This document shows, piece after piece, positions 4,911-59,506 of a stretch of 64,000 nucleotides of DNA; within the stretch, counting starts at the first letter, position 1, and every line of letters begins with the position of its first letter. The position numbers and the translations under genes are program-made. Under the pieces are notes generated by a model. The model ran no database searches and was not told the origin of the DNA. It saw nothing but the letters and a program-made list of their open reading frames with translations. Source of the stretch: Sulfolobales archaeon (GTDB lineage: Archaea; Thermoproteota; Thermoprotei_A; Sulfolobales; NBVN01); NCBI GenBank assembly GCA_025058345.1, contig JANXEN010000001.1, positions 134,481 to 198,480 on the forward strand, given 5' to 3'.

Positions 4911-5857
4911 GCAAACCCATAACAGTTTGGGATTTACCTAAAGAGGAATTCCTAGCGTCCGGACATAGGATGTGTCAGGGATGCGCAGCTGCCATAACTT
5001 TCAGACACGTACTCAAGGCTGCTGGCAAAGATACTATAGTATCGATGCCGACAAGCTGTGGTGAAATAACATCGACAGTATACCCACACAGTGCTTGGAG
5101 AATCCCGTGGATCCATGTAGCATTTGAGAACGCGGCTGCTGTCGCCTCAGGTATTTCTGCAGCTATCGAAGCCCTCAAGAGGAGGGGAGAGATACCTAAA
5201 GAGAAGGACATAAATGTCATCGCTATGGGTGGTGATGGCGGTACGTTCGACATCGGCTTCCAAGCACTTTCAGGCACTCTAGAAAGGGGGGACAACGTCC
5301 TCTACATATGTTATGATAACGAGGCCTACATGAATACCGGTATTCAGAGAAGTGGTGCAACCCCATTAGGTGCTTGGACTACTACCACACCAGTAGGTAA
5401 GGTATGGCGTGGTGAGTGGAGGCCTAAGAAGAGGAAGGATTTAATAGCGATCGCAGTAGCTCATAACGTACCCTACGCAGCAACAGCTACTCCAGCATTC
5501 CCAACGGACCTATACGCTAAGGTTAAGAAGGCATTATCCATTAAAGGACCTAAGTTAATGCACGTATTAAGCAGCTGTGTACCTGGATGGAGAATCGAAC
5601 CAGAAAAAGGTATAGAGGTATTAAAGCTAGCAGTACTAACTGGTATGTGGGTTAACTACGAATATGAGAACGGCACCTACAGAGTAACAACACCGGTACC
5701 CAAGAGGAAGCCAGTTAAGGAGTACTTAAGGCTCCAGGGAAGATTCAGACATCTAACTGATGAGGACATTAAGAAGATTCAAGAACTAGTTGATGCAGAG
5801 GTTGAAAAGATCAATAAACTAGTAGGTAAGCAAGTAATAGGTCCTGTCGAAGGTTAA
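4907..5857 (+). CDS. porB: 2-oxoacid:ferredoxin oxidoreductase beta subunit, copy 1
   Basis: Beta subunit (316 aa), which binds the diphosphate of TPP-Mg and the [4Fe-4S] cluster nearest the active site. Cluster cysteines are visible as HRMCQGC near residue 24, TSCGE, and SSCVPGW further on. The TPP motif is GGDGGTFDIG followed by YDNEAYMNTGIQRS. The C-terminus has KEYLRLQGRFR, also present in copy 2. It ends 2 nt before the stop of the convergent nitrilase-like gene. It has an insertion around WRGEWRPKKRKD that makes it 18 residues longer than copy 2. Confidence 0.95.
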   Translation: MSKPITVWDLPKEEFLASGHRMCQGCAAAITFRHVLKAAGKDTIVSMPTSCGEITSTVYPHSAWRIPWIHVAFENAAAVASGISAAIEALKRRGEIPKEKDINVIAMGGDGGTFDIGFQALSGTLERGDNVLYICYDNEAYMNTGIQRSGATPLGAWTTTTPVGKVWRGEWRPKKRKDLIAIAVAHNVPYAATATPAFPTDLYAKVKKALSIKGPKLMHVLSSCVPGWRIEPEKGIEVLKLAVLTGMWVNYEYENGTYRVTTPVPKRKPVKEYLRLQGRFRHLTDEDIKKIQELVDAEVEKINKLVGKQVIGPVEG

Positions 5858-5859
5858 AA

Positions 5860-6651
5860 CTAGACGATTAAAAACCTAATAACATTTTTTAAATACTTAA
5901 TTATAGTTTTATCAGATAATACGTTTCTCTTAGTAATCTCTACTACGAAAACGCTGGGTTCAAAATCGTTGCACATATCTATAATCTCACCACTACTGCT
6001 AACTAGTAGAGTTGGAATTAAGTTAATCCCGTCCTCAACATAACTGCCTATGTTGATAATAGGTATGGAGTTCTCAATAGCCCTAGTAATCAATATAGAT
6101 CTAAGAACTTCATCTCTATATGCTGATAATTTAGGTAATTGCACTGATAAAATTACGTCAGACCCTAAGTAATTACATAACCTAGCAACCTCTGGAATCT
6201 TGATGTCGGAACCTACCAGAGAGCAAAGCCTTACACCACCTACGTCTAAAACCTCAACCTCCTTACCGGGACTCACAACTACGTTTAAATTACCTTCACC
6301 AAAAACTTTTTTAACATTGTAGGTCTTCCCGTGGGGAGTTATAAGTGTTGTAGTGAGGTATTTCCTACTACCAGCCCTGTAGATAATAGGTGTTATTATT
6401 AAGTACATTAATGACTCATTACTAAGATCTAGGAGCTTGTTGATTAGCTCCGTCGTAGATGACTCATAAGTTGAAAACCTCTTAGACCCCTTTAATACAT
6501 CTATCAGTGGATGTAAAGGAGCGGGAAAAACGACTGCCTGAGCACCCTTACTCTTAGAATTAGCTATGAATTCCTTAACACACTTAACGAATTCCTTAAC
6601 ACCTATGTCGACGTTCATATGCAGAATTGCTAACATTAACCCGCTACTCAA
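5860..6651 (-). CDS. nitrilase-fold protein lacking catalytic residues
   Basis: 263 aa with the order of motifs of the carbon-nitrogen hydrolase (nitrilase) superfamily. The segments are VVFPAPLHP, a Y-x-x-K-K-x-F segment near residue 111, and GSDIKIPEVARL near residue 147, followed by LGSDVILSV. In active members these positions hold the Glu, Lys and Cys of the catalytic triad. Here the Glu site is Ala44, the Cys site aligns with Gly147, and the Lys appears shifted by one. I infer a non-catalytic, perhaps ligand-binding or regulatory, relative. Its ATG overlaps the end of reverse gyrase by 4 nt, so the two are co-transcribed and probably translationally coupled. Family assignment is by eye. 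Confidence 0.6.
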   Translation of the reverse strand: MSSGLMLAILHMNVDIGVKEFVKCVKEFIANSKSKGAQAVVFPAPLHPLIDVLKGSKRFSTYESSTTELINKLLDLSNESLMYLIITPIIYRAGSRKYLTTTLITPHGKTYNVKKVFGEGNLNVVVSPGKEVEVLDVGGVRLCSLVGSDIKIPEVARLCNYLGSDVILSVQLPKLSAYRDEVLRSILITRAIENSIPIINIGSYVEDGINLIPTLLVSSSGEIIDMCNDFEPSVFVVEITKRNVLSDKTIIKYLKNVIRFLIV

Positions 6652-52211: not shown

Positions 52212-53387
52212 CTATATAAGAGGTAGCGGAGCTGAGAGAATCAATAACAATAAGTAAGTGGTGGTAACTCCGAACTTCATATTCATCGGTACGGAGGTTT
52301 CAAGCATGTTAGCTACCCCTATATGTGGTTTAAACCCTGATAAGAATAGCGCTAAAATCGAGAAAATACCTAACCAAATGAGGGCACCGCTGAAAAACAT
52401 TATGGATGTTAAGGAGAAGATAACCATGAGTAATGCGGTAATGATGCTTATCATTGAATGAGTTTTAACTGATGTAACGCCCCTAATCACATGACCGCCA
52501 TCTAACTGCCCTATCGGCAGTAAATTAATGAAATGTATTAATATCATTATTAGTGATGCGTAGGCTGCTGGATTAAGTATTGTTACGAATTCACTAGTGG
52601 ATAAAGATCTGATTAAACCCATTATGAAGTATGCAGATATCGGAACTACCTCTACATACCTTAAAAGACCCTCGCTTAAAGCTGCCTCGACAACCCCCAT
52701 TGGTAGTTTAGGTGACAACAAGTAGTTTATTGAAAACATGATTAGTGAAGTTATGAATCCAAGAAGAGGTCCGGAAATCCCTAATTTCAGCAGTAATGTG
52801 AGATTCTTCGGCAAAAACTCCATCCTAACTATAGCGCCGAAAGTACCTAGTGGTGAGATGAGTGGGGCTGGGATGAAGATAGGATAAGATGCTGGGATAT
52901 GTGATTTCCTGACTACTAGTATGTGACCGATTTCATGCATCATTAGAGGAATTAGTACGCTTAATGTGAATAGGCTCATCTCATAGATTATTCTACCTTG
53001 AACGACCTTACTTCCAACTATTGAACCTAAGTTATTGAAGAAACTAACTGATATGAAGTACCCAGTTATCAATACCGAAATAACGGTTAGCCCGAAGAGA
53101 ATGGAAGAAAGTTTATACGTGTTGAGGCGGGATTTACCACCGTCTATAACCCTTAGGACGGTGATGTTTCCAGCATTATATAGTATTGGGTAGTAATTCA
53201 TTGCAACCAACTCATCATATAGTTCATTAAAGGACTTACTTACATCTTCCTTACTTGAAATGATAACATATTCCGTGAAAGCATTATTCCTGAAACTCTC
53301 AATAACTTTGAAGAACTTGCTTATAATTGATAAGGGTTCTTCTAAGGTTTTACCTTCTCCATTTTGATTCAAGATCGGATCCACCAA
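52212..53387 (-). CDS. M50-family (site-2) intramembrane metalloprotease
   Basis: 391-aa polytopic membrane protein. Zinc ligands are HEIGH at residues 151-155 and the C-terminal LPIGQLDGGH. About six or seven membrane helices follow a soluble N-terminal part of some 90 residues. Such enzymes release factors from membranes by cutting within helices. The substrate is unknown. Start uncertain among TTG 53387, GTG 53384 and TTG 53372. Sits 17 nt after rpoK and 10 nt before topA. Confidence 0.93.
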   Translation of the reverse strand: MVDPILNQNGEGKTLEEPLSIISKFFKVIESFRNNAFTEYVIISSKEDVSKSFNELYDELVAMNYYPILYNAGNITVLRVIDGGKSRLNTYKLSSILFGLTVISVLITGYFISVSFFNNLGSIVGSKVVQGRIIYEMSLFTLSVLIPLMMHEIGHILVVRKSHIPASYPIFIPAPLISPLGTFGAIVRMEFLPKNLTLLLKLGISGPLLGFITSLIMFSINYLLSPKLPMGVVEAALSEGLLRYVEVVPISAYFIMGLIRSLSTSEFVTILNPAAYASLIMILIHFINLLPIGQLDGGHVIRGVTSVKTHSMISIITALLMVIFSLTSIMFFSGALIWLGIFSILALFLSGFKPHIGVANMLETSVPMNMKFGVTTTYLLLLILSAPLPLI

Positions 53388-53404: not shown

Positions 53405-53710
53405 TTAACCCTCCCCCGTCCTATAAAATTTTTCTTCAAGTTCTAAAAGTCTCCTAGCAGGTATTAGTTCTTTCTCACCATTAGGCTTAACTCTAATTAT
53501 GGTTATTGGCAACACACCTTTCTTAAGCTCTTCAATAGCAATTATCACGTTATCTTTGGGAAGCTTACTTATATCGATCAGGGGTGGGGCTCCCAATGAT
53601 AGTTGAAGGGCTCTTGCACTAATTATGCGTGCCTTCTCATACTTCGTAAGTTTAGGCGGTCCTATCTTAATTCCTGTAAGTTCCCGCAACCTTTCTGAAA
53701 CTGTCTGCAT
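53405..53710 (-). CDS. rpoK: RNA polymerase subunit K (Rpb6-like)
   Basis: 101-aa assembly subunit of RNA polymerase. The core [23 protein letters not shown] and [16 protein letters not shown] is diagnostic. An N-terminal extension of about 20 residues is longer than in many archaea. First gene of the unit rpoK-M50 protease-topA. Confidence 0.95.
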
Positions 53711-53801: not shown

Positions 53802-55499
53802 CTATTCAAAATCGAATTTACCTCTCTCTTCCTCACCGCCTTCTCCTGCCTTTCCGCCCTTACCTTCTCCTGCCTTCATAGGTGATGCAGCTATTATATC
53901 ATCTACCTTTAGTACGGCTGCAGCGGCTTCCGTCGATGCCTTAATTATTTGCTTCTTAACTATGACTGGCTCAGCTACATTTATGGAGAGTATGTTTTCG
54001 ATGACTTTACCATTCATTACGTCAATACCTGCATATAGCTTGCCCTCGGTATGTAACTTCCTTAACTCCATGAGCGTATCCAGCGTATCCATACCCGATG
54101 TCGAGGCTAATACAACAGCTATTTCCTCTAAGGCATCTGCGAATGATTGAATGGCTAACTGCTCTTTACCACCAACGCTTTCAGCATATTTCTTCAGCCT
54201 TAAAGCTATTTCGATTTCCGGTGCTGCCCCGCCAGGAATTAACTTAGGATCTCTTAAAACGTTCCTCATAGCGTGAAGTGCGTCATTTAAACTCCTTTCA
54301 GCCTCATCTATTATCATGTCGTTCGCGCCCCTCACTAATATCGTTACTGCCTTTGGATTCTTACACCCCTCTATGAAGACCATTTTATCGTTACCGATCT
54401 TCCTCTCCTCCACTAGCTCGGCGTATCCTAAGTCCTTCTCAGTAAGGTCTCTTATACTGGTTACTATTCTTCCTCCAGTCGCTCTCTCTAGTTTCTCCAT
54501 ATCGGATCTCTTAACCCTCCTTACGGCGAGTATTCCCTTCTTTGCTAGGAAGTGTTGTGCGACGTCATCGATGCCTTTCTGGCAGACAACTACGTTAGCC
54601 CCAACAGCAACTATCTTGTCAACCATGTCTTTAAGCATCTTTGCCTCCTCATCTAAGAATGACCTAATCTGCTCTGGGGAGGTTATGTTAATCTTAGCCG
54701 TTATTTCGGGTTTTTCGATCTCTAGGGGTGCGTCAATTAGTGCGATTTTAGCTTTCTCAACTCTCTTAGGCATACCTGGGTGTACTACTTCCTTATCTAG
54801 GACTACACCATAAACTAACTGCGAATCAGTCATTGAAGCGCCTTTCTTCTTCTCAATCTTAACGTTATCTAACCGAACTTCATAGGTACCGTCACCTCTC
54901 CTCTCAGAAGCTACTACAGCCGCTGAAATCACCATATCTATCAATCTATCTATTATGTCTGGAGTTGCTAGGTACTTACTAGCTAGGGTTGTGTAAAGAA
55001 CCTTAACTAATTCAGGCCTGACCTTAGCCAAGCCCTCCGGGGTTTCAATCCCGCCTACATCTAACTTAGTAGCTATCTCATCAAGAATCTCTAACGATTT
55101 AGCAGCAGCTTTCTTATAGCCTTCAATAATTATGGTTGGGTGTATGTTCTGGTCCAGTAAGGCTTCGGCCTTACCTAATAACGAACCTGCCAGAACAACG
55201 GCTGAGGTTGTACCGTCGCCTACCTCAGCATCTACGGCCTTAGCTGTCTCAACTAACAGTTTTGCTGCAGGGTGCTGGACCTCCATCTCCTTAACTATAG
55301 ATGCACCGTCATTAGTAACGGTTATATCGCCGAAGCTATCAACAAGCATCTTATCTAAGCCTTTAGGCCCTAAACTCGTCTTTAGTACTTCCGCTAAAGC
55401 TCTAGCAGCTATTATGTTATTCCTTAATGCATCCCTACCCTGAGTCCTTGAAGTACCTTCCTTCAATATCACAACAGGTATTCCATATAGTGCAGTCAT
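53802..55499 (-). CDS. ths: thermosome subunit (group II chaperonin)
   Basis: 565-aa ATP-driven folding chaperonin. [41 protein letters not shown] and the [11 protein letters not shown]-type block (here [12 protein letters not shown]) are intact. The C-terminus is Gly/Glu/Lys-rich ([13 protein letters not shown]) and ends FDFE rather than with GGM repeats. A TATA-like CTTATATAG lies about 35 nt upstream. Paralogues are likely elsewhere in the genome. Confidence 0.97.
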
Positions 55500-55695
55500 A
55501 CTCTAATCCCTTGAATTCTATTTCAGTGACTTCTATATAAGCTTTAATGAACATTCAAACATCCAAGAAATCAGCAGTGCTAACTACCTCAAATTTAGAT
55601 GTAGACATGTAGCTATAGATTAAGTTAACGGGCTGCTATGGTAATGCATCTTAAATAACTTATTAGTAATAAAGTTAAATTTTATGGGGTGCGGT

Positions 55696-56022
55696 ATGAG
55701 GTTAGACCTAGAAATGGTTATGAAGATCTATGAAGAACATATAGATATTGGAGATGTGGATAAAGCTAACCTTTTCGTTGCATTCATTGTTGGCTTTTTA
55801 GCATTCATTAAATATCATAAGGGTGTTGATGAAGGTCTTATTTCGGACTTCGCTGGAAGTTTAAGACGTGGTCTTGTTGAAGGTCCTGATTACCTAAATC
55901 CCTACATTATGGAGTTGCTTGGAATACTTGAGGAGGAGATTAGTGAGGTCACCTTTAACGAATTAATCACTAAGCTGAGGGGTTTGCTTAGGGAGGAACG
56001 TCTTGACAAACTCGAGGTATGA
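55696..56022 (+). CDS. hypothetical helical protein, 108 aa
   Basis: Unknown family. Mostly helical, acidic, with AFIVGFLAFIKYHKG as a hydrophobic helix that is probably buried rather than membrane-spanning. ATG 55696 follows GGTG by 4 nt; ATG 55684 is also in frame. The end overlaps the next gene by 20 nt, so the two are coupled. Confidence 0.7.
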   Translation: MRLDLEMVMKIYEEHIDIGDVDKANLFVAFIVGFLAFIKYHKGVDEGLISDFAGSLRRGLVEGPDYLNPYIMELLGILEEEISEVTFNELITKLRGLLREERLDKLEV

Positions 56023-56827
56023 ATTAGGGCATATATGTACGTCGTGCCGTAGGAGGAGAGCTGTTTATCTGAGGAGGACGTCAGGGGAGAAGTTATGTAG
56101 CTCATGCTACGAAAAATCATTAATTAAGGTCATTAAGAGAGCTTTAAGGGACGTTAATGAATTACGGCCTGGTGCAACCATAGCGTCTATTATAATACTG
56201 GAGAGACTTATTCCAAGCCTTACACTATTGTATTGTTTAAATAGGGTTGAGCAGAGATATGGCTGTAGTGTCTTAGCGTTAGCATTTTATATGAAGGGTT
56301 ATGAGAAGGTTATTGAGGACGTTATTAACTCAGTCCTTATAAGTAAGTTCAACTTCAATAAGAATTTAGTGAAGGTATTAGAGGTTGAGGAAGGGTTAAG
56401 GTACACACCTAATGAGATGCTGGATTACTACTTATCAGTGACCTCCAATAAACTAAGCATGTACAGTAACATTGCAGTATTTCCCTTCACCTTAAATGAT
56501 GTAAGTGAAGCAGCCATAAATTCCTTACTATATGGCGACTTAAAATCCATTGCTCTGCCGCAGTCCTTTAAGGTTGGAGATACTAGGTATGTTATGCCGT
56601 TCTATAATATCCCCAATTACGATATCTATGTATTCTCATATGTGAAGGGATTTTACGACCATGTATTAGATGATTTAATACCTAGTTTTAATAAATGTTT
56701 GGAACCCCCATATAAACACTACATAGTGATTAAGGAATTGATTAAGGACCTTAGCTACAATAATCCAGAATTGACTCAAACATTGGTGAAGTCAGTCAAT
56801 AAATTATTTAAGGCGGCTAATCCTTAA
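56003..56827 (+). CDS. Ncs6/TtuA-like protein lacking the PP-loop
   Basis: 274 aa. The N-terminus CTSCRRRRAVYLRRTSGEKLC followed by SSC (Cys12, 15, 32, 35) matches the first zinc site of the TtcA/Ncs6/TtuA tRNA-thiolation enzymes. The order of later elements also fits, with PFYNIPNYDIYVFSYVKG at the place of their KPL...E..Y-A block. The ATP-binding PP-loop (SGGKDS) is absent: residues 62-72 read SIIILERLIPS. The second CxxC and active cysteines are missing too. I infer a non-catalytic paralogue, perhaps a partner of the true enzyme. TTG start with GGAGG upstream; converges with the thioredoxin-fold gene. Confidence 0.55.
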   Translation: MTNSRYELGHICTSCRRRRAVYLRRTSGEKLCSSCYEKSLIKVIKRALRDVNELRPGATIASIIILERLIPSLTLLYCLNRVEQRYGCSVLALAFYMKGYEKVIEDVINSVLISKFNFNKNLVKVLEVEEGLRYTPNEMLDYYLSVTSNKLSMYSNIAVFPFTLNDVSEAAINSLLYGDLKSIALPQSFKVGDTRYVMPFYNIPNYDIYVFSYVKGFYDHVLDDLIPSFNKCLEPPYKHYIVIKELIKDLSYNNPELTQTLVKSVNKLFKAANP

Positions 56828-57218
56828 GTCCGAGACGTAAGGTTAACTTAATGCCGTATTGCTGTAAGGTATTCCTCATACTAAGCTTTAAGACGTAGTA
56901 GTCTGTTTGCATATCTTTAAAGCAGTCCTCCTGCTCCAACACGTTCTTACCTTTAAGGTATAGTCTAATTAGAGGTAACGTGTTTATACCCTCATCCTCC
57001 TTAAATGTAGTGTTTGATGGTAGATTATCGATGTCGAATAATGCAAAGTTCACTAAATGCCCAACTCTTGATTCTAGTTTTTGGAAAAGATTAATCATGT
57101 ATCTCTTTGTAGCGTAGTCACGGCCAATAAAACCTACTAGAACTATCTCGTTGATCGAAACTAACTTTCTGAACTCTTCAACGTTGCTGAGCACCTTCAA
57201 GACTTGCTTCATCCCCAC
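56817..57218 (-). CDS. thioredoxin-fold protein without CxxC
   Basis: 133 aa. The strand-helix order of thioredoxin is visible: EIVLVGFIGRDYATKRYMI at the active-site position, FALFDIDN, and a cis-proline segment INTLPLIRLYLKGKNV. The CxxC is replaced by RDYATK-like residues, so it cannot be a disulfide reductase. It may be a binding module. Start within the end of the zinc-protein gene (41-nt overlap); ATG 57212 is an alternative. Confidence 0.6.
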   Translation of the reverse strand: MGMKQVLKVLSNVEEFRKLVSINEIVLVGFIGRDYATKRYMINLFQKLESRVGHLVNFALFDIDNLPSNTTFKEDEGINTLPLIRLYLKGKNVLEQEDCFKDMQTDYYVLKLSMRNTLQQYGIKLTLRLGLKD

Positions 57219-58044
57219 ATGATTCTCTGTAAGCGTTCCTAATTAACGTTTTATCATCACTACCTAACAGTACTTCAATGTCTATCATCCCATCTCTGAA
57301 GTCCTTCGGATGTTTAATGCCATTTCCATTAATTAATATGTAGTCATATTTCGTCAGTTGTTTTAATTCATCGCAAGTCAGTGAACGTACGTAATTCATA
57401 AGCATTTCATCAAATCCTAATGACTCCTTCAACTGCTTATCACTGATCACACTTCCACACACAAGGCAGTACATATCCTTAGTCAACGAGTTAAATAGAC
57501 ATATAGGGCATTCAGCAGGTAGTGTTTTGGAGCGTTGCTCAAGCCATGAAACCCTCCAAAACCTTCTAAGAAGTGGTAACGTATCCTCACGACCTAACTG
57601 TTTTACTTCCCTGTAAATCCTGGGGGCAACGCCTAAAACTGCTTTACCTATATTACCTACTACGAAGTCAATGTGTTCAGGTCTTAATCGTTCTCTGAGA
57701 TTCAGTAAAGCTAAAGCTATGAGGGGATTTACGTTCTCAGCAAATCTCCTGAATCTCTTAGCCATTGTCTGAGCGTCAGGTCTTGAAGTCGAAGATCCGT
57801 AAAGTAATTCTACCGGAGCCTTAAGTACTTCTATGTATTCCTCCCTGCTAAGGTTGAGGAAATCTAACCCTAAGGAATTCACTAACTCTTCAACGTTCTT
57901 CTCCAGCCAGGAATCGATATCTACCTCCTTTCTAACTTTCACGGCACTCCTTTCTCCCACATTGACATCTTTCTTAGCAACCTCTCTAGAGCTGCTACTA
58001 CCTCCTTTATCTTTCTCTACCTTTTCTAACTTCTTCTTAGGCAA
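57178..58044 (-). CDS. hypothetical zinc-motif protein, 288 aa
   Basis: Unknown family. A highly charged, Lys/Ser-rich N-terminal 40 residues (probably disordered) precede a helical domain with SRPDAQTMAKRFRRFAEN. A four-cysteine zinc motif CPICLFNSLTKDMYCLVCG lies near residue 190, and a C-terminal alpha-beta part follows. It overlaps the thioredoxin-fold gene, so both are made together. Nothing in it suggests catalysis. The zinc motif and basic tail would suit nucleic-acid or ribosome binding, which is inference. Confidence 0.7.
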   Translation of the reverse strand: MPKKKLEKVEKDKGGSSSSREVAKKDVNVGERSAVKVRKEVDIDSWLEKNVEELVNSLGLDFLNLSREEYIEVLKAPVELLYGSSTSRPDAQTMAKRFRRFAENVNPLIALALLNLRERLRPEHIDFVVGNIGKAVLGVAPRIYREVKQLGREDTLPLLRRFWRVSWLEQRSKTLPAECPICLFNSLTKDMYCLVCGSVISDKQLKESLGFDEMLMNYVRSLTCDELKQLTKYDYILINGNGIKHPKDFRDGMIDIEVLLGSDDKTLIRNAYRESCGDEASLEGAQQR

Positions 58045-58167: not shown

Positions 58168-59391
58168 TTAAAATATGTTGACTTGCCCCTCTATTATCAG
58201 GTCGGTAAGCTTAGTTATATTGTTTAATTCGTCCTTAACTAATTCCTCAACATCGGATTTAACTGTCTGGAAATTCGAATTTTCGTCAACCACTAACTTA
58301 ACGACCGCTACTAGCGGCTCGTTAATTGGCTTACCGATCTGACTTAAGATCTCCATATAAACTTCCTTAACCTTAGGCACTTCATTAACCACTTTATCAC
58401 ATATGTATCTAGCTAAAACGTTATATAGCTTGCCGACGTGGCTTACAGGGTTCTTTCCAGCAGTTGCTTCAAGGCTCATAGGCCTCAAGGGTGTTATTAA
58501 GCCGTTAACTCTGTTCCCTCTTCCAGTAGCTCCGTCATCACCGTGCTCAGCAGATGTACCGGTTACTGATAAGTATATTACGCCACGGTCAGGTTTATCA
58601 GCAGTATTGACGTACACTTCAACATCGCAACCTCCAGCTATCTTAGATGCTAAATCAGCTACCTTATTAACTACATCCTCTTTCACTGAGATGTAGTGGC
58701 TTAAGTCCGGTATTAGGCTTGATATCATAGCTGCAGCCACTGTCAACTTAATCTTATTGTTGACGCGTAGGCCCATAACCTTTATATCCTCACCTACCTC
58801 AGGTAGTTCTTTCTTAGCAGCACTGCTGTTTAAGTATCTCTCAACGCTATATACTAGTCTCTCAAGAGTTGAGAGCGGTGCATAGCTAACCCCGAAACTA
58901 GTATCGTTAGAGAGAGGTATTGACCTAAGACCAAGTCTATAGGTCTGCACTAGATCTGCGCTACCAGTCCTAATCTTATAGTCAACTACTACATGCCTCT
59001 CCGGATCTAAGAATCGGAAGTTCTTCTTAATCCAGTCCTTAACCGCCTCAACTACTATTGTCCCCATAGGTACGTACTCTAATGAGTTGTTACTGTTAAT
59101 TATAACCTCAGTCCCTCTACCTGCAACTATTATGTATATTGGGTGTAGAACTTCACCACCACCAAATTTAGGAGCTGATTGCCCACCTACTAGAAGTACT
59201 TTATCTAGATTGTGGTGTAGTATAGTTCCGTACTTTCCGAGATAGTACTTAGACAAAGCAACACTTGAGGCTTCAGCTACCGCATCCGCTATATAGTCAG
59301 GATGCCCTAACCCTTTTCTCTCCACTAACTCAACGTTCTGCTCCTCCACTGGAACAAATCTTAATCTCTCTACCACTATGTTTGCCTGCAT
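58168..59391 (-). CDS. mat: S-adenosylmethionine synthetase, archaeal type
   Basis: Archaeal MAT (407 aa) making AdoMet from methionine and ATP, unlike bacterial MetK in sequence. Features are VERKGLGHPDYIADAVAE, HHNLDKVLLVGGQSAPKFGGG, DTSFGVSYAPL, and the GDDGATGRGNRVNGLI and PMSLEATAGKNPVSHVGK blocks. ATG 59391 is chosen; GTG 59403 in frame would add four residues. Supplies methyl donor for the guide-directed rRNA methylation and Tsr3 chemistry encoded nearby. Confidence 0.96.
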   Translation of the reverse strand: MQANIVVERLRFVPVEEQNVELVERKGLGHPDYIADAVAEASSVALSKYYLGKYGTILHHNLDKVLLVGGQSAPKFGGGEVLHPIYIIVAGRGTEVIINSNNSLEYVPMGTIVVEAVKDWIKKNFRFLDPERHVVVDYKIRTGSADLVQTYRLGLRSIPLSNDTSFGVSYAPLSTLERLVYSVERYLNSSAAKKELPEVGEDIKVMGLRVNNKIKLTVAAAMISSLIPDLSHYISVKEDVVNKVADLASKIAGGCDVEVYVNTADKPDRGVIYLSVTGTSAEHGDDGATGRGNRVNGLITPLRPMSLEATAGKNPVSHVGKLYNVLARYICDKVVNEVPKVKEVYMEILSQIGKPINEPLVAVVKLVVDENSNFQTVKSDVEELVKDELNNITKLTDLIIEGQVNIF

Positions 59392-59506
59392 CTGCCTTAC
59401 CACTTAAATTGGTGGTATGTGGCATTATTAAATTTAATAAATAGTTAACGTAATTTATATTACTCTCAGTAATATTGTTTAGTTACAAGCAATAGTTAAA
59501 TGGGAA

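Follow-up and report, generated by a model that had tools for sequence, protein, structure and literature searches.

A degenerate TtuA/NcsA paralogue and its gene neighbourhood in Sulfolobales, and its co-occurrence with the active enzyme NcsA-1

Archaeal U34 thiolation is held to need a single NcsA, while eukaryotes use two proteins (PMC10067955). Ctu2, which is required with Ctu1 in vivo, is devoid of the cluster cysteines and retains its zinc-finger sites, its supposed task being the orientation of the tRNA (PMC10067955); for Sulfolobus, no data tie Urm1 to tRNA thiolation (PMC12645042). Within a window of 64,000 nucleotides (the whole stretch of DNA analysed here), taken from an incomplete (82.6%) genome of the order Sulfolobales, we studied a group of four genes at 55696-58044, in which A and B on the forward strand converge on C and D on the reverse strand (Table 1), and in which B partly resembles each of these two types of thiolase component.

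With the NcsA/TtuA enzymes (6scy, 5mko and 3vrh) protein B shares a profile match over its whole length and the N-terminal zinc finger, the C-terminal finger being kept by B in some families and lost in that of the window (f1; the designations f1 to f11 are anonymous labels). It differs from them in having no PP-loop, cluster cysteines or HNLDDE motif, and in possessing conserved residues of its own. With Ncs2/Ctu2 it shares the condition of a non-catalytic paralogue of the same fold, which keeps zinc-finger sites and occurs alongside an active paralogue; unlike Ncs2/Ctu2, it has been found here in one archaeal order only and is not matched by PF10288, and its origin is probably independent. 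The CTU2 profile PF10288 exceeded its cut-off in 0/60 genomes and matched at no B locus, and CTU2 was absent from the best 25 of the 38 families in a profile search of B members; as this profile misses B, any likeness to Ctu2 would be convergent. No literature was retrieved on a crenarchaeal PP-loop protein that had been inactivated, or on the essential genes of S. islandicus.

The four genes and the degenerate thiolase B

The gene calls of the initial annotation, with two gene pairs meeting near 56.82 kb, stood as they were. The stop of A overlaps the start of B (20 nt), D runs into C (overlap of about 40 nt), and the convergent B and C overlap by 11 nt. As each of the four has relatives in many genomes and their order is conserved (usually beside the genes for a thermosome subunit, RpoK and an M50 protease), we regard A to D as real genes. 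The literature, searched by locus tags from around thermosome alpha of S. acidocaldarius, yielded no paper that deals with the genes next to it.

Table 1. Features of the gene group and of its surroundings in the window
Feature	Position	Strand	Remarks
A	55696-56022	+	108 aa; 112 aa from in-frame ATG at 55684
B	56003-56827	+	TTG start; 274 aa; catalytically dead TtuA/NcsA paralogue
N-terminal zinc finger of B	56036-56110	+	C12, C15, C32, C35; RRxSGExLC
Degenerate PP-loop position of B	56186-56221	+	IIILERLIPS versus AISGGKDS, from alignment with 30 active enzymes
C	56817-57218	-	GTG start, 133 aa; 131 aa from ATG 57212; thioredoxin fold without CxxC
D	57178-58044	-	288 aa; zinc-ribbon protein, new family
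Thermosome subunit	53802-55499	-	Conserved neighbour on the A/B side
RpoK	53405-53710		Beyond the thermosome gene
M50 protease	52212-53387		Beyond the thermosome gene, with RpoK
S-adenosylmethionine synthetase	58168-59403	-	Inconstant neighbour, upstream of D in the lineage of the window

The affiliation of B with the TtuA/NcsA family, proposed at first by eye, was confirmed by a profile of 31 relatives searched against the PDB, which matched 6scy (E 1.2e-15) and 5mko (E 1.3e-11) over positions 4-254; furthermore, PF22082 (TtuA_LIM_N) matched 24 of these 31 members at E<=1. In an alignment of 58 relatives with 30 active enzymes (all from Sulfolobales), the PP-loop SGGKDS and the PCxxC/CPY [4Fe-4S] cysteines were absent from the B of the window and from 58/58 relatives, and the PP-loop was likewise missing from the B members found after these first 58. 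All 30 active enzymes, on the other side of the comparison, carry SGGKDS, PCTxCG, HNLDDE or HTLDDE and the second cysteine. The segment LERLIPS, which had been read as what the PP-loop has become, does lie at the PP-loop position; it proved to be part of a segment that is degenerate across the family (with a 2-residue insertion) rather than a conserved new motif.

The catalytic columns of B are randomised, and its conservation peaks instead in the N-terminal zinc finger and in the basic K/R helix that follows. The four cysteines of the finger (C12, C15, C32 and C35) are nearly invariant, and nowhere is conservation across the family higher than in this finger; Y22, R24, S27, G28, E29 and the K/R-rich stretch 42-46 are conserved as well, together with P161 and E256-L257, where the active enzymes have A and G-T. 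In a tree of 119 proteins (with long branches and no known root), B formed one clade (SH-aLRT 100), apart from both Sulfolobales paralogues and from the NcsA proteins of other Thermoproteota. Homology to TtuA/NcsA, the uniform loss of catalytic residues and signature residues of its own show long selection as a non-enzyme: judged from its sequence, B is under selection, though not for the thiolation reaction. That B might be a pseudogene or a chance open reading frame was considered and rejected, given its conservation over the order and its own signature. The B gene of genome G289 is split over two overlapping frames (L324:5109-5615 and 5549-5926, both on the reverse strand), as in a frameshift or a decaying gene.

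Since B is without thiolation chemistry but keeps the zinc finger of a tRNA-modifying family, a non-enzymatic RNA-binding role would be its natural reading. Such a role could be exerted outside any catalytic complex, with B acting as a regulator that binds RNA through its zinc finger and uses the thiolase body only as a platform, for example in sensing thiolated tRNA or in controlling the amount of NcsA-1. Strong conservation in B is limited to the finger, and in family f6 the protein has shrunk to about 184 aa, of which mainly the finger and a C-terminal motif are left. Most B members, however, have a full-length body and a C-terminal P-E-L motif under strong constraint, neither of which a mere platform would need, and we consider a regulatory function decidedly unlikely.

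The partner proteins, their distribution and their neighbours

Searches of all four proteins against Pfam and NCBIfam gave sub-threshold matches only. For A, which is recognisable by the motif EGPxYLNPYVxEL and a C-terminal LDRLEV, neither these databases nor the PDB yielded a convincing match, and a similarity to an AMPK helix (PDB, E 0.027) was rejected as chance. The thioredoxin fold without CxxC assigned to C was upheld by profile comparison (best E 2.7e-5), by the AlphaFold2 model (pLDDT 91.5) and by Foldseek matches to thioredoxin folds (E down to 7.8e-8, probability 1.00); CxxC was absent from 38 aligned members, the most conserved residues of which are G86, Q92 and D102. Thioredoxin folds that lack CxxC are known to serve functions other than redox chemistry, and such a fold alone makes no tie to sulfur transfer. 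Proteins of the Dim1/Dib1 type share with C this fold, the absence of CxxC and a weak profile and Foldseek similarity; a close sequence relation is lacking, and the likeness observed is one of fold.

Protein D, described at first as a zinc-motif protein of no recognised family, still answers to that description: its cysteines 179, 182, 193 and 196 are invariant, and no Pfam or NCBIfam family scored above cut-off. The model (45 sequences, mean pLDDT 90.5) consists of a disordered Lys-rich N-terminus, an all-helical domain of seven helices (43-170), the zinc ribbon (176-197), a short beta hairpin and a long C-terminal helix, and found no solved fold in a Foldseek search against the PDB (best E 1.4). 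Its likeness to the zinc ribbons of eS27 and TFIIB is confined to the four-Cys ribbon and is at chance level, the helical domain being without a solved match. By scan, relatives of D were found in records of Zestosphaera, Desulfurococcaceae, Ignisphaera, Pyrodictiaceae and Acidilobaceae. At the level of sequence, A and D define two uncharacterised protein families.

The conserved gene order expected of a genuine system was found in most of Sulfolobales. D is present in all sampled genomes of the order except three of f8; outside Sulfolobales, a 299-genome sample of the phylum gave only 5 weak partial D matches, limited to the zinc ribbon, and a distribution general to Thermoproteota was therefore rejected. 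The system is, at the sensitivity used, specific to Sulfolobales (the active NcsA matches elsewhere having been read in part). Within the order, C is missing in f4, f5, f8 and f11 (bar weak thioredoxin-like matches), and in f6 it is not next to D. A, which either precedes B or adjoins C, occurs in f1, f3, f6, f10 and part of f9. The families without B are f7 and f9, where the locus consists of D, C and the thermosome gene, and where the number of TtuA/NcsA-family matches per genome equals that of the active enzymes. B thus occurs without D or C in f8 and with D but without C in f4, f5 and f11, and D and C occur without B in f7 and f9.

Genomes of the Ignisphaera type have D, C and B on one strand together with the thermosome gene. 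In much of f1, D-C and A-B are far apart or on separate contigs, and there D-C is preceded in many genera by a gene for a TGS-domain DRG-type GTPase (gap -4 to 71 nt), and in another genus by that for ThrRS (gap 159-421 nt); these neighbours point to translation or RNA. Further proteins to which no family was assigned were observed next to D: in f11 the gene immediately upstream (gap of about -4 to 40 nt) encodes a small conserved Cys-rich protein of about 110 aa (L227:6003-6467, reverse strand; relatives at L115, L119, L122, L222-L226 and L228), and a charged protein of 105 aa is conserved upstream in f3, f7, f9 and f10 (L113:3433-3750, forward strand; relatives at L093-L097, L100, L101, L103, L114, L118 and L120). 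One ribonucleotide reductase beside D (L106:1753-5580, reverse strand) carries an intein-like insert after ITATNPC and measures 1276 aa, as against about 875 in a relative.

One reading of these observations is that B, D, C and A constitute a non-enzymatic RNA-binding module (on tRNA or the ribosome) outside thiolation, in which B would provide a tRNA-binding surface derived from a thiolase, D a scaffold and C a docking domain. It is favoured by the adjacency D-C-B-A or D-B, which is kept over most families, by the frequent grouping of D-C with translation genes in what looks like an operon and by the Lys-rich tail and zinc ribbon of D. It sits poorly with the phyletic patterns of B, C and D, which disagree (f8; f7 and f9; f4, f5 and f11), and with the separation of D-C from A-B in much of f1, and we hold it to be a doubtful, if serious, candidate. 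Of the module proposed in the initial annotation, derived from thiolation machinery and devoid of enzymatic activity, the descent of B, its lost chemistry and its retained zinc finger stood, and a loss of chemistry in B and C as one joint event was not supported.

Co-occurrence of B with NcsA-1 and a proposed role

The active enzymes were searched for with the NcsA of the window's genome (L062), and the best matches fell into two classes: NcsA-1 (E down from about 1e-60, that is <= ~1e-60, with 43-73% identity) and a second class (1e-43 to 1e-55, 31-38%). The NcsA-1 state of each genome was read from these bimodal match scores, except in f6, the enzymes of which were placed in the NcsA-1 clade by a first NcsA tree (used only for this, its strict motif filter having dropped many second paralogues). 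All genomes of f7 and f9 fell into the lower-identity class and all complete B-bearing genomes into the NcsA-1 class. Counted in this manner, and leaving out G016, G021, G030 and G052 (four genomes with B that are incomplete and yielded no NcsA-1), 67 genomes have both B and NcsA-1, 20 have neither, and one (G332) has NcsA-1 without a B at its D locus. Both also seem to be absent from genus g5 of f1 (three genomes with a completeness of 59-76%), which may represent a further case. Moreover, the NcsA-1 clade (e.g. L062:1348-2295) has invariant residues of its own and has lost an Asp (reference position 90 in the alignment) to which the outgroup NcsA and the enzymes of f7 and f9 hold invariantly. 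In genome G273 three tandem NcsA-1 pieces (C8:191344-194135; about 330, 495 and 936 nt) suggest partial duplications.

At the level of lineages, B agreed with NcsA-1 in 12/12 (Fisher p 0.015; the association rests on 2-3 independent losses), and its agreement with C, D and A amounted to 6, 9 and 5/11, respectively. The lineages are not independent; on a tree of D plus thermosome, all three pairs available for comparison agreed (sign test p 0.25). Over families, the presence of B did not follow that of C (p 0.52), A (p 1.0) or D (p 1.0), since four of the families with B are devoid of C, whereas both that lost B have it; an obligate complex of the four proteins is not supported by these patterns. 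As B follows NcsA-1 and not A, C or D, the data favour the active NcsA as its probable partner over a joint four-protein complex. The two genes are not neighbours in the window's genome (B at C11:190483 and NcsA at C11:207396), where B adjoins D.

Shared ancestry might also account for the match between B and NcsA-1, through two related losses (f7 and f9) and no functional link, with the clustering of B with D and the thermosome gene as inherited order; the independent events are indeed few, and other genes could be carried along as passengers in the thermosome-RpoK arrangement, which is an old one. The losses in f7 and f9, however, spared C and D, and two further cases went the way expected of a functional link. 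The first is nested: a Pyrodictium-like MAG (G337) has B in its usual place together with NcsA-1 (46% identity), and three relatives (G338-G340) are without both. The second concerns f6, which has NcsA-1 and seemingly had no B, so that the association predicted a missed one; an unfiltered whole-genome scan found, in G035, an open frame of 184 aa without a PP-loop that matches B at E 3.6e-9 and keeps an SGEYLC finger and a C-terminal YSSxK motif. In a second f6 genome a relative of this protein (2.9e-30 to the B of G035) stands immediately behind A, which is also the arrangement of the window, and a loss of B in f6 was rejected. We judge shared ancestry to be the least probable of the readings.

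We propose, at about an even chance, that B and NcsA-1 are partners in tRNA 2-thiolation, B taking in these archaea the non-catalytic part that Ncs2/Ctu2 has in eukaryotes. An ancestral thiolase of the NcsA type (a homodimer elsewhere in archaea) would have gained a paralogue in the ancestor of Sulfolobales; this paralogue would be B, in which ATP-binding and Fe-S chemistry are lost and the N-terminal zinc finger and the basic helix are kept. On the strength of their co-occurrence and of the Ctu1/Ctu2 model, B may pair with NcsA-1 as a heterodimer, in which B would position the tRNA and NcsA-1 would carry out adenylation and sulfur transfer. D, with C and A where present, would belong to a module of its own, possibly with an auxiliary function on RNA or ribosomes; its link to B is one of gene adjacency, and this part of the proposal is the less certain. 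A fuller version, in which the NcsA-1/B heterodimer forms a multi-subunit thiolase with D as RNA adaptor and, where present, C as docking domain, seems to us unlikely; if true, it would mean that prokaryotes arrived independently at the pairing seen in Ncs6/Ncs2.

Of the two families A and D, one is present in nearly the whole of an order that contains the genetically tractable Sulfolobus. The replacement of a homomer by a heteromer has, to our knowledge, so far been described as a eukaryotic habit, and the pair of B and NcsA-1 would show this step in a prokaryote. Moreover, the Ctu1/Ctu2 complex, the recombinant production of which has failed, would gain a hyperthermophilic model in a conserved dead NcsA paralogue that tracks the active one across the order.
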